DNA of 6,384 bases from Thermotoga sp. 4484_232 (GTDB lineage: Bacteria; Thermotogota; Thermotogae; Thermotogales; Thermotogaceae), in contig MZGO01000088.1 in assembly GCA_002084985.1 (NCBI GenBank), positions 1-6,384 of the forward strand, read 5' to 3'. Below are positions 1-6,384 of the stretch, one piece after another (position 1 is the stretch's first letter; every line of letters begins with the position of its first letter). The notes under the pieces were generated by a model. That model searched no databases and was not told the DNA's origin. It was given only the letters and a program-made list of their open reading frames with translations. The position numbers and the translations under genes are program-made.

Positions 1-2316
1 GATTTTGAGTTCAATATACCCGATACCTTTTCATCCTGTGATCTGAAGATATCCTCAGCAAAGGACGATGAATTCATACTGCCCGGTGAAAGGGCGGTTG
101 TTATCGGTAGGGAAAAAGGGAGGATAGAAGAAGTGTGGATACATCCTGTGAAAATCCTGAAAGAGATGAGAATAAGGGTAGATGGTGTCAGGATCGAAAA
201 ACTCGTGAAGGAAACGATCATAAGGCCAGAATATGTGGAGATCTTGGGAGAGAATCTCAGATACTACGTTATGACCTCCTTGAGGGATCCCGCTGTTTAT
301 CTTCACATTGATTTTTTGGATGATGATGTTCACTTGTTGGATATAGATTTTTCCATACCTTTCAGGATCATGTGGCCTTTCGATGAGAATTACTTCCATA
401 AGGTTTTGATCGATACAAGGGAAAACATGGTCTCGGTTATGGATTGGGAAAAAAGGTATCAAGCTTTTTACATTTTTTCTGAAAAACCTATAAAGAGAAA
501 GGTGATCACCAGAGGCAAGAAAATATATCTCCATCTTCGATTTCCGGTTAGAAGTAAAATTACCCTGGCGGTCGTTGGAAAGATGAAAGAAGCTCTGGCA
601 GTTGATAGAATTCTCGATCTTGAATATCAAAACAAGACTCTGGAAAGATTCTTCGAGGATGTTTTAAAAAGGGTGAATGTGGAAACAGATGATAAGGTCC
701 TCGAAGAAAGCTTGAAATGGGCAAAGATCGGCCTGAGTAGATTCCTTGTAAAAACACCTGGTTTGGGGAGAGGGTTAGTGGCAGGTTATGGAAAGTCCCT
801 CCCTGGATGGTTCGAAGGAAGACCTGGATATGCCTGGTACTTTGGAAGGGATAGCGAATGGGTGTCTCTGGCTCTTCTGGATTTAGGAGATTTCCAGGCT
901 GTGAAGGATAATCTCCTTCTTTTAATGAAATACCAGGGACCAGATGGGAAGATATATCACGAACTCACAACCAGTGGTTCTGTTCATTACGACGCCTCCG
1001 ACTCAACCCCTCTTTTCATCCTAACTTTTGCAAGGTATGTAAAGTACACAGGTGATGTCAACTTTGCGAAAAGGTATTGGAATAGCCTCATGAAAGCGCT
1101 AAAATACGTTTCATCAACCGATAAAAACGATGACGGTTTGGTTGAGAACGAACGTGTTGGACATGGATGGATAGAAGGAGGAAGGATCGGAGTATCTCAT
1201 ACAACTTCGTACACAAACGCCATCTGGATAAAAGCCTTAGAGGAGATCATCGAAGTTGGAGATTTTCTGGGAAAGAATATGAGAGAGCAGAAAGAAATTT
1301 TAAAAAGAACAAGAGAAGCTTTCGAAAGATTCTGGGATCCAGAGAAGGGGTATTATTGTGTGGGGCTCGATGTATCTGGTAGAAAGATACCACACGAAAC
1401 GATACTGCCTTCCGTTGGTATGATGTTTAACGTAATACCGGAGAACAGGAGAGAAAAGATGCTCGAGGATTTTGCAAGTAATGAGTTCACAACTGATTGG
1501 GGAGTCAGGTTAGTTAAGAAATCATCAGAAGTATTTGATCCTCGGGGCTACCACGAAGGAAGTGTGTGGCCGTTATTTACAGGATGGGTATCTCTTGCAG
1601 AGTATGAAAGCTGGTATTCGATAAATGGATACGTTCACATGATGAACAACGCTTTGGATTACAGAAATTGGACTAAAGGCTACATTTCGGAGGTACTTCA
1701 TGGGAAAGTCTACAAACCTGCTGGGGTTTGTCCTTTTCAAGCATGGTCCCAATCCATGGTTGTACAACCCTTCGTCGAAGGGATGTTAGGGTACAAGCCT
1801 GATGCTCTGAAAAAGAGGGTGAATCTGAATCTGAGGATACCTTCTAACATCACCCGTTTAAGAGTATCGTCACTTCCTTTTTCCACAGGTTCAGTGAGTG
1901 TCATTTGCGAAAGAGAAGGAGAAGATATGTTTATAACGATCTTGAAAAGATACGACGGGGAGATCACCTTGAAGATGCGTGTGGGAATACCTCTTCTATC
2001 GGAGATAGAATCTGTTTTGGTTTGTGATAGAGCCATCGAATTTTCATACTATGAAAAGGGAGATAGAAAAGTTGTTGAAATTCCTGAGCAGATTTTGAAA
2101 GATTCTCTGACCCTTCATCTGAAACTGAAGAATTTTTCGGATGTGAAGCCTCCTGTACATGTTCCCAAACCTTTTTCAAGATCCAGAGGTACAAGGATCG
2201 TGGGGTTCATGAAAGAAGGTGAAAAGCTAAAAGTAATCTATGAAGGAAAGATCCCTCCTGAGATTGTGGGAGATGGTATATACCTTGTGAAGCGAAATCA
2301 AGATAGTTCGAAGTAG
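1..2316 (+). CDS. Glycogen-debranching-like (alpha/alpha)6-barrel glycosidase, 5'-truncated by the window edge
   Basis: The reading frame is open from base 1, so the GTG at 133 is internal and the true start lies outside the window; 771 residues are visible. Numbered from the window edge, residues 1-210 look like an N-terminal beta-sandwich domain (RAVVIGREKGRIEEVWIHPV near 35-49 is typical of debranching-enzyme N domains). Residues about 225-600 form the helical toroid, with the landmarks PGYAWYFGRDSEW (275-287), GLVENERVGHGWIEGG (379-394), YHEGSVWP (517-524) and CPFQAWSQSM (577-586). The rest is a C-terminal beta domain. Such proteins are annotated as amylo-alpha-1,6-glucosidase or GDE_C-like and hydrolyse alpha-glucosidic branches or related oligosaccharides. 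Acidic residues in WIEGG and YHEGSVW are candidate catalytic groups, by inference. The substrate cannot be fixed, and whether there is a signal peptide is unknown because the N terminus is missing. It is the only + strand gene and converges on the yhaN-like gene with a 19-bp overlap. Confidence 0.85.
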   Translation, partial: DFEFNIPDTFSSCDLKISSAKDDEFILPGERAVVIGREKGRIEEVWIHPVKILKEMRIRVDGVRIEKLVKETIIRPEYVEILGENLRYYVMTSLRDPAVYLHIDFLDDDVHLLDIDFSIPFRIMWPFDENYFHKVLIDTRENMVSVMDWEKRYQAFYIFSEKPIKRKVITRGKKIYLHLRFPVRSKITLAVVGKMKEALAVDRILDLEYQNKTLERFFEDVLKRVNVETDDKVLEESLKWAKIGLSRFLVKTPGLGRGLVAGYGKSLPGWFEGRPGYAWYFGRDSEWVSLALLDLGDFQAVKDNLLLLMKYQGPDGKIYHELTTSGSVHYDASDSTPLFILTFARYVKYTGDVNFAKRYWNSLMKALKYVSSTDKNDDGLVENERVGHGWIEGGRIGVSHTTSYTNAIWIKALEEIIEVGDFLGKNMREQKEILKRTREAFERFWDPEKGYYCVGLDVSGRKIPHETILPSVGMMFNVIPENRREKMLEDFASNEFTTDWGVRLVKKSSEVFDPRGYHEGSVWPLFTGWVSLAEYESWYSINGYVHMMNNALDYRNWTKGYISEVLHGKVYKPAGVCPFQAWSQSMVVQPFVEGMLGYKPDALKKRVNLNLRIPSNITRLRVSSLPFSTGSVSVICEREGEDMFITILKRYDGEITLKMRVGIPLLSEIESVLVCDRAIEFSYYEKGDRKVVEIPEQILKDSLTLHLKLKNFSDVKPPVHVPKPFSRSRGTRIVGFMKEGEKLKVIYEGKIPPEIVGDGIYLVKRNQDSSK

Positions 2317-3668
2317 GTTTCATTCTGGATCACTCTGGTATCGCTTGTTAAAAAGATCACCTGCCTCTTCTCTGAGATCTCCTTGAGAAAGTCCTTCATG
2401 ATTCCAATCATTCTATCATCGAGATTCACAAATGGGTTGTCGAGTATCAAAGGGAGATCAAGTTCCAATAGATCGTGGATGGATATCTTGTAAAGAAGTG
2501 ACAGTATGTTCAGAAAAGCTCCACCCAGTATCTCAGATGGCTTGAACACTTTGTTCGATATGAAAACTCGCAAACTCAAATCGCTTTCTACGATGAAGTT
2601 ATCTATATCTCTAGAAAACCTGCTGGAGTTTCTCAGAATCGATTCTGCCAGATCATCTTTGTAGGCGGAGATGATCTCTTCCTTGATGCTCTTCAAAAAA
2701 CTCTCGACGTAAGGGTAGGCAGATATCCTGGCTTCCAGTCTCGAAAGTTCCTTTCTTTTCTCTTCTAACTTCAAAAACATGTCTTCTGGCGTTTCGAGGT
2801 TCGGTACTTTCAAACTTTCGAGTTTCTCTCTTTCCTTTTCTATAATTCTTTCGAGCTTTACGATCTCCTCATTTTCCTCCTTCATTTCCAATTCTTTCAG
2901 CATCATCTCGTATTTTTCAACATCCTTCCTTTTCTGGGCTATCGATTCTTCAATTCGACTTAAATTCTCCAATTCTTCGAGAATTCTTTCAACATCACCT
3001 ATACTCTCACACCCGTTGTCTTTCAATATTTCATTCTTCCGCTTAACGAATTCTTCCAAATGAGCTCTCAAACTTCTCTCACGATTTGTGAGGTTTTCCA
3101 GTTTCATTTCCGCATCTTTCAGTTTCATGATGCTACCCTTCACCTTATTCAAATCTTCTTCAGCTTTAGCTAAAATACTCTCAACATCTTCAGACTCTTC
3201 ATACCCCAAATCCTTGAGAATGCTCAAAATTTCTTTATCGATCCTTTCCAATTTGGGGGATGAGATAAGCATCTTCTCCAGTTTTTCTCGGAGTTCGTTG
3301 ATGCTCTCAAAACCAGTTATACCCTCTATCCCCTTCAATTCTTTGAAAACATCCCTTCTTCTCCTCTCCAAATTCCTTATGGCTATGTTTGATTCTATTA
3401 TCTCTTCTTCCACGCTATTGGCTTTCATTCTATCGAGTCTGATGGTAAAGATGTAAACTACGGAGAGGAAAGCCAGCGTAACGCTTCCTATGTGAAAGTA
3501 TTTTGAAAACGTCATACCGAGTACCAAAAAGGTACCTGCTCCGATAAGAAATAACAAGCTCTTTATAAGATCTCTTCTTGTCTTCTTTCTTATATCCCTT
3601 AAATCTTTCTCTAAGGATTCTAGCCTGTAACGTTCCTTTTCCAACTCCTCACTTATTTCAGACAGCAC
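2298..3668 (-). CDS. C-terminal fragment of YhaN-like ATPase (membrane hairpin, coiled coil, Walker B half)
   Basis: This open frame has 456 codons from a GTG at 3668, probably not a natural start. The GTG lies inside the duplicated 56-bp unit, has only a weak upstream AGG, and the frame itself is open back to 3704. Residues 35-54 and 60-77 are two hydrophobic segments forming a predicted transmembrane hairpin, flanked by basic residues (RKKTRRD before, RLDRMK after). Residues 85-340 are coiled coil broken by short Gly-containing modules. The C-terminal head follows: PSEILGGA (377-384) at the ABC signature position, PLILDNPFVNLDD (406-418) as Walker B plus D-loop, and KRQVIFLTSD (about 435-444) as the strand before the switch. 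The signature lacks its usual Ser, and Asn411 replaces the acidic residue normally following the Walker B Asp. The gene ends inside the convergent glycosidase gene. Confidence 0.78.
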   Translation of the reverse strand: MLSEISEELEKERYRLESLEKDLRDIRKKTRRDLIKSLLFLIGAGTFLVLGMTFSKYFHIGSVTLAFLSVVYIFTIRLDRMKANSVEEEIIESNIAIRNLERRRRDVFKELKGIEGITGFESINELREKLEKMLISSPKLERIDKEILSILKDLGYEESEDVESILAKAEEDLNKVKGSIMKLKDAEMKLENLTNRERSLRAHLEEFVKRKNEILKDNGCESIGDVERILEELENLSRIEESIAQKRKDVEKYEMMLKELEMKEENEEIVKLERIIEKEREKLESLKVPNLETPEDMFLKLEEKRKELSRLEARISAYPYVESFLKSIKEEIISAYKDDLAESILRNSSRFSRDIDNFIVESDLSLRVFISNKVFKPSEILGGAFLNILSLLYKISIHDLLELDLPLILDNPFVNLDDRMIGIMKDFLKEISEKRQVIFLTSDTRVIQNETYFELS

Positions 3669-3727
3669 ACTGATTCTAGCCTGTAACGTTCCTTTTCCAA
3701 CTCCTCACTTATTTCAGACAGCACACT
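3616..3727. repeat. Perfect 56-bp tandem duplication (two copies)
   Basis: Copy 1 spans 3616-3671 and copy 2 spans 3672-3727; every base matches, starting gattctagcctgtaacg and ending cagacagcacact. The tract is exactly 2.0 units: the flanking bases do not extend the period, so no junction microhomology is visible. Because 56 is not a multiple of three, it shifts the reading frame of the surrounding ATPase gene. Each copy encodes VLSEISEELEKERYRLES when read in the coding frame, so the repeated peptide is coiled coil. It looks like a recent event because the copies have not diverged at all. Confidence 0.97.
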
Positions 3728-3825
3728 CTCTACTTTTGAAAGCGTTTGATCTATGGAGATACTTTTCTCCCTCTTTTTCATATCCAGTAACAGACGAGCG
3801 TTCTTCAATCTTACTTCAACCTCTG

Positions 3826-4638
3826 TTATACTTTTAACAATTCGTTCAGTTCTTTGCTTAACTTTGATATCTCCTCACTCAGGATAATAGCTTCTTTTAG
3901 ATTTTCTACACTGGCCTTTCTCAAGTGCGATCTTTTACGCCTTTCATCTTCAAGATACTGTATTTCTTTTTCAAGCTCTTCTAATTTCTTTTTGATCTCC
4001 TCAATTCTCCTTTTCTTATCCTCTTCAAATTTTTTTCTCTTATACTCGTAGTCTTTGGAAAGCTCTTTCAACCTTTTCTCCAAAATTATTTTTTCTCTCC
4101 TCAAAGAAAGGATCTCTTTTTTTCTCTCCTTCCATATATTCAGTTTTTCCTCAATCTCAGCGATTTCATCCATAACTTTTTTCTTCCGATCTACAAAGAT
4201 ACTTGGGCCTCGTTTGAGAGCATTCTCAATATTCCTGATCAGCTCTTTGTTTGAATACTTTTCTCTGAAAAGTAGAATGATCTTCCTGTCAACCGATTTT
4301 TCCATCTTTCCATCGTACGTCTCGGAAAGGAAGGAGGAAAGGTCAAAAAGATCTCTGTCGATCAAGTGAGCCTTTTCCGAGAGATTTATAACTTTTTCTC
4401 CTTCATATGTTTCTACAAAAAGATTCCCTCCAAAAACGTCGTGATACCAAGGCCTGTATCTTTCTATTTCTTCGGCTTTAGCTTCGCTGAGAAGGTATCG
4501 GATGAAATTTGCTAAAGTTGTTTTGCCTGCGTTATTTGGGCCATATACCAGATTCAGCCCTTCTCTGAACTCAATTTCGAATCCCTTGAATTTACCAAAA
4601 CCTTCTATTTCCACCTTTCTCAGTCTCAACATTCTCAC
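3826..4638 (-). CDS. N-terminal fragment of YhaN-like ATPase (Walker A half)
   Basis: This 270-codon frame holds the N-terminal nucleotide-binding half. LRLRKVEIEGFGKFKGFEIE is the typical first strands of the SMC/RecF/Rad50 fold, followed by GPNNAGKTT (33-41, Walker A) and the YhaN-like RYRPWYHDVFGGNL (about 60-73). After roughly residue 135 it becomes charged coiled coil. The GTG at 4638 overlaps the upstream TGA by 4 bp (GTGA). The ATG at 4632 is the more likely start, because the Shine-Dalgarno GAGGAG at 4645-4640 lies 7 nt before it but only 1 nt before the GTG. Either start implies translational coupling with the upstream phosphoesterase-like gene. The last four codons (LLKV) follow a homopolymer A run; the coiled-coil coding continues in the -1 frame, so the stop at 3826 is premature. 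Alone, this piece lacks Walker B and the signature and should not be an active ATPase. Confidence 0.8.
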   Translation of the reverse strand: MRMLRLRKVEIEGFGKFKGFEIEFREGLNLVYGPNNAGKTTLANFIRYLLSEAKAEEIERYRPWYHDVFGGNLFVETYEGEKVINLSEKAHLIDRDLFDLSSFLSETYDGKMEKSVDRKIILLFREKYSNKELIRNIENALKRGPSIFVDRKKKVMDEIAEIEEKLNIWKERKKEILSLRREKIILEKRLKELSKDYEYKRKKFEEDKKRRIEEIKKKLEELEKEIQYLEDERRKRSHLRKASVENLKEAIILSEEISKLSKELNELLKV

Positions 4639-5324
4639 TCTCCTCGAAGCATCTCTAGAACGACCATTTTTTCAACTCTTTTTTCCAACCTCTCTAGATA
4701 TTTCCGGAAGCAAATAGGTGATTCAGGTATCTCTTCATAAAGAGCTTTCACGTTCTTTAAATGCCTTATCTTTTCGACTTCAAGCGGCGTGAGGAAGGTG
4801 TTTAAGACGAAAAGCTCTTTTTCATTGATGAGATTTAAAGGAGATTCTTCGAATTCCTCTAGGATGTTGAGTTTTAAAGAAGGAAAGTCTAGATTGACTT
4901 TTGAAAAAGCCCTATTCTCGTAGATAACACAACTGGGAAAGTTGTTTATAGGGCTCGAAGAGAAATCTGTGGGTATTTCTATCCCCTCTATAAACACTTT
5001 TTCTTCTTCGATCTTGACCCAATCCTGTTCATCGTGGAAATAAACGTTGGGAGGAAGCTTCAAAGCACCTGTAAGTTCTTGGTCTAAAATCACGATTCTC
5101 CTATCTTTAGGGAACACTTCATCCATAAATGTTTCGAGCTCTTCAGGTAGAGCTGCTTTACCAAAAAGGTTTATGAACAGGTATGTACTGTCATTGAAAA
5201 GAGAGAAAACGAAAGAAATAAAAGCTCTCTTGACGTTATCTATCGTACTTGCAAAAAATACCTCTTCACCCTCACTATCCTTTACTTTTATATCTTTCAA
5301 AACAATGACTTTCAAACAATCCAC
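4635..5324 (-). CDS. Degenerate Mre11/SbcD/YhaO-like metallophosphoesterase-fold protein, predicted non-catalytic
   Basis: This 229-residue protein sits directly upstream of, and overlaps, the YhaN-like ATPase, the place a YhaO/SbcD nuclease would occupy. Read against that fold, the order of motifs is kept but the metal ligands are gone. LKVIVLKDIKV (4-14) has DxK instead of DxH; LFINLFGKA (49-57) replaces the IAGDLFDKA motif; RRIVILDQEL (75-84) replaces the PGNHD strand; LPPNVYF follows as in nucleases; FVLNTFLTP (172-180) stands where ALGHxHxP belongs. This alignment was done by eye and is an inference. A structural partner for the ATPase is the natural role. The start is uncertain: GTG 5324 runs straight out of the G-rich Shine-Dalgarno, while TTG 5315 has GGGGGTGG five bases upstream and would give MKVIVLKDI, the normal first strand of the fold. 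It could also be an unrelated protein. Confidence 0.6.
   Translation of the reverse strand: MDCLKVIVLKDIKVKDSEGEEVFFASTIDNVKRAFISFVFSLFNDSTYLFINLFGKAALPEELETFMDEVFPKDRRIVILDQELTGALKLPPNVYFHDEQDWVKIEEEKVFIEGIEIPTDFSSSPINNFPSCVIYENRAFSKVNLDFPSLKLNILEEFEESPLNLINEKELFVLNTFLTPLEVEKIRHLKNVKALYEEIPESPICFRKYLERLEKRVEKMVVLEMLRGE
4640..4645 (-). promoter_or_regulatory. Shine-Dalgarno GAGGAG deciding the YhaN-like start
   Basis: GAGGAG sits 7 nt before the ATG at 4632 and only 1 nt before the GTG at 4638, favouring the ATG. It lies inside the last codons of the upstream phosphoesterase-like gene, so translation of the two genes is probably coupled. Confidence 0.65.
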
Positions 5325-5498
5325 CCCCTACCTGGAAGTGGTATTTGAGCTATTTTTAACTATCACTTTTTTAATCCGTCACTTATGAATCAAAAGGGTG
5401 TTACTTTTCTGATTTACGATCTCTGAAAGAATCCCCCCTATCCCCCCCTTGGATGGACCCGATGAAGTTAGAGAGGAGGGCCCCACCCCCTCCTCTTT
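5325..5498. other. 174-bp intergenic spacer with hairpin and G/C homopolymer tracts
   Basis: This spacer separates the sigma/membrane-protein pair from the YhaO/YhaN-like pair, all on the - strand. It holds a GC-rich hairpin at 5472-5496 and, on the - strand, G-tracts of 5 and 4 (5490-5481), 7 and 6 (5448-5433) and 5 (5328-5324). It should hold the promoter of the downstream pair. The best candidate I can see is GTGACG, 18 bases, TAAAAA within about 5383-5354 on the - strand. That is only 8 of 12 consensus bases, and I do not regard it as proven. No small gene or structured RNA is recognised. Confidence 0.6.
5472..5496. terminator. GC-rich hairpin, intrinsic-terminator-like
   Basis: AGAGGAGGG (5472-5480) pairs perfectly with CCCTCCTCT (5488-5496) across a 7-base loop. 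It begins 2 bp after the stop codon of the membrane-anchored protein gene, so it plausibly ends the sigma operon on the - strand. However, the T-rich tail (TTTTC then ATTTTTT, 5496-5507) is on the + side, where no gene leads in. On the - strand the stem is followed only by CTAACTTC. It may act in both directions or block antisense transcripts. Confidence 0.55.
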
Positions 5499-6125
5499 TC
5501 ATTTTTTGGGAATGTAGAGACTGAGGTCTTTCTCAAGATTATTTATTCTAGAGGTTTTAAGCTGAACAACTTTCGTGGGGTGGTACCTCCCCCCACTAAC
5601 TCCGAATACCAAAGCGTAAACTCTGCCTGGTATACCCACAACTATCGTTGAGTCTGGTGGTACAACGATCGTGTACTCTGTTTCTATTTTGGGTTTTTTA
5701 AAATAGTAGAATCTGTATGGAGAAAGACCCGGTTTCAAATCCTTCGAGAAAAGGATCGTGTTTCCTTTCTTGACGGTTATCCACACTGGATCGTAGCCTA
5801 TAACGAAGAACTTTATGTACCCAGTCGTCGGATCGTTGTTCATCTCCGTGAAGATGGCTTCCAGATCGACCACAGCGTTTTTGAAATAATTGACAGCGTT
5901 CACATATCTATCGAAAAGTGAGTTTGGAGCCAACATATTTTCCAATTTTGAAATTCTATCGGAATTGATAGATATTTTCTCACTGAGGGCACTTTTTACA
6001 ACTCTCAATTCTTTCACGATTTTCCTCTCCATAATGAATGCGGAGATGGAAAAAACCATGGCTAGAACCATGGAAACAAGCAATAAAAACGCTAGAAAGG
6101 TCGTGATGAAATTTCCTTTTCCCAT
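5499..6125 (-). CDS. Membrane-anchored coiled-coil protein of unknown function
   Basis: I do not recognise this 208-residue protein. It has one N-terminal hydrophobic segment (about 7-31, FITTFLAFLLLVSMVLAMVF), preceded by GKGN and followed by basic MERKIVKELRVVK, which fits a signal anchor. Residues 33-66 form a short coiled coil (VVKSALSEKISINSDRISKL). Residues 72-208 look beta-rich, with WITVKKGNTILF, YTIVVPPDSTIVVGIPG and VYALVFGVSGG, probably an extracytoplasmic domain. The ATG start is well supported by GGAGGG at 6136-6131, 5 nt upstream. The gene starts 13 bp after the stop of the SigH-like sigma gene and is therefore almost certainly cotranscribed with it. A link to sigma control is only suggested by position; no known anti-sigma motif is visible. 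Confidence 0.75.
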   Translation of the reverse strand: MGKGNFITTFLAFLLLVSMVLAMVFSISAFIMERKIVKELRVVKSALSEKISINSDRISKLENMLAPNSLFDRYVNAVNYFKNAVVDLEAIFTEMNNDPTTGYIKFFVIGYDPVWITVKKGNTILFSKDLKPGLSPYRFYYFKKPKIETEYTIVVPPDSTIVVGIPGRVYALVFGVSGGRYHPTKVVQLKTSRINNLEKDLSLYIPKK

Positions 6126-6138: not shown

Positions 6139-6384
6139 TCAGATTAGCTCCTTCAACAAGTTGAATATACTCGATTTCCCTCTGTCTTTCAAAATTCTCC
6201 TGACCTTTTGAACAGTGTTGTCTACCTTCTTAGGGGACACTCCCACATTTTCGCTTATATCTCTGTAAGAGTAACCGTTCAACCACATGGAGAATATCTC
6301 CTTTTCCTCCTCACTCAAAAATTTCATCACTTCTTCTATCAGATACTCTACAATCGCTTTTCTTGAGGTTGTTAACTTATAATC
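6139..6384 (-). CDS. SigH-like sigma-70 family factor, C-terminal part (cut by the window edge)
   Basis: The frame is open to the last base, so the GTG at 6330 is internal; 81 residues are visible. FLSEEEKEIFSMWLNGYSYR followed by DISENVGVSPKKVDNTVQKV is a sigma region 4 helix-turn-helix (about 22-64), which contacts the -35 promoter element. The LNGYSYxxI and KxVDNxxQxxRR pattern most resembles SigH of Firmicutes, whose region 4 carries similar VDNALQRxxRK residues. The gene symbol is not assigned because the N-terminal regions 2 and 3 are not visible. It could also be another alternative sigma factor or a LuxR-type HTH, though the latter fits less well. It precedes the membrane-anchored protein gene by 13 bp, in one apparent operon. 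Confidence 0.75.
   Translation of the reverse strand, partial: DYKLTTSRKAIVEYLIEEVMKFLSEEEKEIFSMWLNGYSYRDISENVGVSPKKVDNTVQKVRRILKDRGKSSIFNLLKELI

Follow-up and report, generated by a model that had tools for sequence, protein, structure and literature searches.

Two neighbouring frame-shifting lesions in a YhaN-like ATPase gene of Thermotoga sp. 4484_232, possibly reflecting a local assembly error

A gene predicted to encode a YhaN-like AAA ATPase of the SMC/Rad50 type, located on the minus strand of the window (the whole 6,384-nt stretch of DNA analysed here), is broken in this record by two frame-shifting lesions about 105 nt apart, namely a 79-nt deletion and a perfect 56-nt tandem duplication. 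Both lesions most likely arose through a local error of assembly, an origin that we favour over a real double mutation and hold with about even confidence.

The N-terminal piece of the gene matched AAA_23, AAA_15 and AAA_27 (PF13476, PF13175 and PF13514) above their cut-offs, and AAA_27 reached 34.4 bits with this piece and 31.9 bits with the closest relative, P0001, against a curated cut-off of 22. The PF13514 model is the one that we take to be linked to the name YhaN, and its score bears out the name given to the gene in an earlier reading made from the letters alone (the sequence-only reading). A family search reached one unrelated genome, and its list of 14 control genomes showed a match to the same model in Thermotoga maritima as well as in 12 more of them. 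Searches of the PDB sequences with the ATPase gene returned SMC and Rad50 ATPase domains only. The C-terminal piece as query recovered four close relatives (784-789 aa), all of them full length and none split, the closest of which, P0001 (785 aa), is 99% identical. This search scored 7997 candidates, was confined to proteins of 0.55-1.75 times the query length and represented each 90% cluster by a single protein, which could leave other alleles hidden. Genome contigs yielded no relative with the C-terminal piece and, with alignment A2, just two loci, both distant (titles Clostridiaceae and Ruminococcus); viral contigs gave no match or relative and plasmids gave no match.

In the close relatives, motifs that are presumably Walker A and Walker B lie near residue 31 and near residues 734-747, respectively. 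In YhaN-like ATPases the coiled coil is interrupted midway by a membrane hairpin, and hydropathy (with no topology predictor) points to such a hairpin in P0001, where a central hydrophobic stretch spans about residues 362-407 (19-residue windows; the highest mean, 2.04, at 363-381 and the last one exceeding 1.6, 1.88, at 389-407). The gene thus resembles YhaN-like ATPases in its N-terminal P-loop domain above cut-off, its coiled coil, which has a hydrophobic hairpin at its centre, and its C-terminal Walker B. The ATP-binding proteins P0012 and P0013 of Thermotoga sp. (758 and 756 aa) share this architecture; they are distant, with 28% and 27% aligned identity to P0001, and are full length, unlike the gene in the window. 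The occurrence of these Thermotoga proteins among the more distant relatives makes a Thermotogales host probable. P0001 also matched 28 PADLOC models, the best among the matches listed being LmuB (E 2e-15, residues 2-70). The 25 of the 28 matches that were listed fall mostly on the N-terminal ATPase part, and a few extend into the coiled coil (AriA, residues 4-339; mad3, residues 3-298). An identity as a defence gene was rejected, as these matches were read as shared ATPase ancestry and the neighbouring partner gene matched none of the models.

Alignment of P0001 with the window (tblastn) fell into three collinear segments, each in its own frame. The first covers residues 1-267 (4632-3832) and the second residues 293-348 (3835-3668), followed by a remainder that ends with residue 785 at 2301 and whose true match starts at about residue 329. 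At the first junction (3832-3835, minus strand), residues 268-292 are absent and the frame is shifted. The codon of residue 294 lies at offset 800 from the start codon instead of the expected 879, so 79 nt are absent relative to P0001. From start to stop codon the gene spans 2335 nt, versus 2358 nt for P0001, and the difference of -23 equals +56 minus 79. The missing residues are present in 10/10 sequences of alignment A3, P0001 included, which was built from 10 of the 14 hit proteins, leaving out P0015-P0018 as the weakest hits. Depending on unseen codons, the deletion junction may hold 1, 4 or 5 nt of microhomology. Outside the lesions, the comparison with P0001 shows four substitutions, one in the N-terminal piece and three in the C-terminal piece, a count that leaves out five mismatches in the out-of-frame ends of the pieces.

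The deletion lies upstream of the duplication in the gene's direction, and by itself shifts the frame into a stop at 3826-3828, which a translating ribosome would meet before reaching the duplication. The N-terminal piece (3826-4632, minus strand; taken from GTG 4638 in the ORF list) is 99.6% identical to P0001 residues 1-267 and carries Walker A and the first part of the coiled coil. A middle frame island (3653-3874, minus strand) covers the interval from one lesion to the other and ends at a stop at 3653-3655; its 73 open codons (3656-3874) are the incoming frame of the sequence-only reading, which had correctly placed the stop at 3653. The C-terminal piece (2298-3704, minus strand; mechanical ORF 2298-3668 from GTG) carries the rest of the coiled coil, the hydrophobic hairpin and Walker B, and its frame opens only from 3704 on the minus strand, again as had been stated. 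The claim that the duplication splits the gene needs amending: the frame shift that it causes is real, but the duplication does not act alone, since the 79-nt deletion further upstream already disrupts the frame by itself.

The duplication itself was detected by Tandem Repeats Finder at 3616-3727 (period 56, 2.0 copies, 100% match), and a string comparison agreed, so the two perfect adjacent copies described earlier are confirmed. In the gene's reading direction, the first copy (3672-3727, minus strand) corresponds by alignment to P0001 residues 329-346 plus 2 nt, and the second, identical copy occupies 3616-3671 (minus strand). Matches at offset 56 run for exactly 56 nt, compared with a maximum of 13 nt at any other offset between 7 and 300 and of 15 nt in 200 order-1 Markov simulations of the window, so a chance repeat was rejected. 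When the 10 bases on either side of the array were compared by eye with the ends of the unit, only 1/10 positions agreed; the junction therefore has no microhomology, in line with the earlier claim, and replication slippage between short repeats was rejected as the source. A hairpin-driven event was likewise rejected, as only three inverted repeats, each of 7 nt, occur in 3560-3900. Taken together, the lack of homology at the ends and these few inverted repeats leave the duplication unexplained by local sequence. A promoter-like match (9/12, minus strand) is present in each copy, and no promoter within the repeat is claimed, since 3500-5600 holds five such sites versus 3.5 expected. An Rfam scan of the window gave no RNA family at gathering score.

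Perfect short tandem copies can be lost via recombination or slippage, and the sequence-only reading had called a reversible on/off switch, by deletion of one copy, conceivable. The two copies are indeed perfect and shift the frame, and titles in the reference list of PMC4022640 link duplication-driven phase variation in pneumococci to cap8E, tts and the type 3 locus. An excerpt of the same paper describes one isolate and cited serotype 8 variants in which wchA was inactivated by a short tandem duplication, so that the pneumococcal capsule genes (wchA/cap8E and, by title, tts and the type 3 locus) are likewise silenced by a short duplication within the open reading frame (PMC4022640). Unlike those genes, the present one carries an extra independent deletion, has shown no reversion and is tied to no known surface trait. 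Because the deletion is separate and lies upstream, loss of one 56-nt copy would give no intact gene; moreover, the four close relatives found are all full length at 784 to 789 aa (other alleles could be hidden). A simple on/off switch is thus refuted as stated by the second lesion, and we regard any such role of the duplication as extremely unlikely.

The AlphaFold2 model of P0001 is weak as a whole (mean pLDDT 65.6) and stronger in the arm, where means over ten residues range from 83 to 90 for residues 261-300 and from 70 to 79 for residues 321-350; it was relied on for the coiled-coil helices only. In this model, the deleted residues fall within a helix of residues 242-289 and just beyond its end, and the duplicated stretch falls within a helix of residues 295-382, which supports the earlier placement of the lesion in the coiled-coil coding region. 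Both lesions thus fall in the coiled-coil arm that separates the Walker A half of the ATPase head from the Walker B half, so that no single piece carries both motifs. Such an arrangement might suit a split gene, in which the N- and C-terminal pieces are made separately, the latter from GTG 3668, and form a two-chain ATPase head. The two halves are in different pieces with their motifs present, and isolated Rad50 halves can associate. However, the stop at 3826-3828 and GTG 3668 are 157 nt apart, no ribosome-binding sequence was seen by eye ahead of this GTG, the two arms would be unequal in length, and 0/4 of the close relatives found are split, which together make a two-chain enzyme scarcely credible.

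Upstream, an open partner gene (4635-5324, minus strand; ORF list) encodes 229 aa and overlaps the start of the ATPase gene. Its relatives are P0005-P0008, and the protein is conserved in three relatives at 86, 69 and 62% identity. For two of the partner relatives, the longest contig equals that of ATPase relatives (5700 and 7491 bases); the other two cases differ. At E 0.001 the partner had no match among the Pfam, NCBIfam, PADLOC and PHROGs families, and Pfam gave none even at E 1; the PDB sequences offered nothing convincing (best E 0.42), and its structure model, with a mean pLDDT of 38.8, was discarded. YhaN-like ATPases have a neighbouring YhaO/SbcD-like nuclease, and none is evident among the genes of this window. 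The 229-aa protein is a possible partner of the YhaN-like ATPase. The locus departs from YhaN-like ATPases in this neighbour without a Pfam match, in the lack of an evident Mre11/SbcD-type nuclease and in the broken copy itself. The ORFs neighbouring the broken gene are open. At the other end, the ATPase gene (ending at 2298, minus strand) converges on a glycoside-hydrolase-like gene (1-2316, plus strand), and the 3' ends of the two share 19 nt. A terminator-like G+C-rich hairpin followed by T-rich sequence (5470-5498, plus strand) stands between two minus-strand genes amid C runs; three terminator-like sites were found in the region scanned versus 2.0 expected. The stretch 6139-6384 (minus strand) encodes part of a small protein that runs off the window and whose helix-turn-helix resembles sigma-70 region 4 (PF08281).

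The data behind this comparison suggest a draft or metagenome assembly, as the partner cluster P0005 comprises 18 contigs of which the longest has 55,661 bases. The favoured error of assembly would proceed as follows. An assembler would have misjoined a 164-nt island (3672-3835) at both ends; one end would have been joined via a short spurious overlap, with loss of sequence, while at the other end a 56-nt overlap would have been left unmerged, so that this sequence was counted twice. The cell's own gene would then be intact, like P0001. The two lesions do sit at the two ends of this island, and an unmerged overlap would be expected to produce a perfect repeat without junction homology, as observed. 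A misjoined island would also explain the closeness of the lesions and the otherwise undamaged gene. However, this closeness is not rare by chance, as random pairs of points simulated in a 2358-nt gene fell within 105 nt in 8.7% of cases and within 161 nt, the distance to the tandem junction, in 13.2%. Real short duplications can also lack junction homology, and none of the literature matches listed deals with an assembly error of this type. The sequence-only reading had offered a recent event or an assembly artefact, and this pair of options is supported by the 99% identity to a full-length relative.

A recent loss-of-function allele, with a real small deletion and a real small tandem duplication, is a tentative but serious alternative to the error of assembly, to which we give somewhat less than even confidence. 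The lesions could have come from two events or from one episode of template switching in replication or repair, and the near-identity of the remaining gene to P0001 fits a very recent origin. Among wild-type spontaneous mutations in pyrE of Sulfolobus acidocaldarius, with frameshifts in one 7A tract excluded, 16 (fraction 0.099) are large indels, a class made up of deletions and tandem duplications (PMC7785828). Tandem duplications are also marked in the pyrE spectra excerpted from another study (PMC3139894), the short duplications of pneumococcal wchA are inactivating as well (PMC4022640), and human rearrangements are described in which deletions are interspersed with discontinuous duplications (PMC2621351). 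Small deletions and tandem duplications are thus an ordinary loss-of-function class in this one thermophile (PMC7785828). However, the pyrE cases are sequenced mutants of one selectable archaeal gene, whereas here two adjacent lesions occur in one unverified record, and no direct precedent in Thermotoga was among the literature matches listed. Against real lesions, the duplication ends lack homology and the inverted repeats nearby are few and short, and two adjacent mid-size lesions with no further decay would require either a coincidence or a complex event. More specifically, the deletion and the homology-free duplication may both stem from a single replication-repair episode in a Thermotogales relative, and the population may have kept the allele, perhaps in the form of a split ATPase. 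This is very doubtful; if true, the pair would be a signature of template switching or of filled-in staggered breaks in a hyperthermophile.

The case is chiefly a cautionary one. A switch is readily suggested by one record with a perfect tandem duplication, and comparison with full-length relatives reveals the second lesion, which removes that hypothesis. If both lesions are real, they would offer a small example of mid-size deletions and homology-free duplications arising together in a thermophile lineage.
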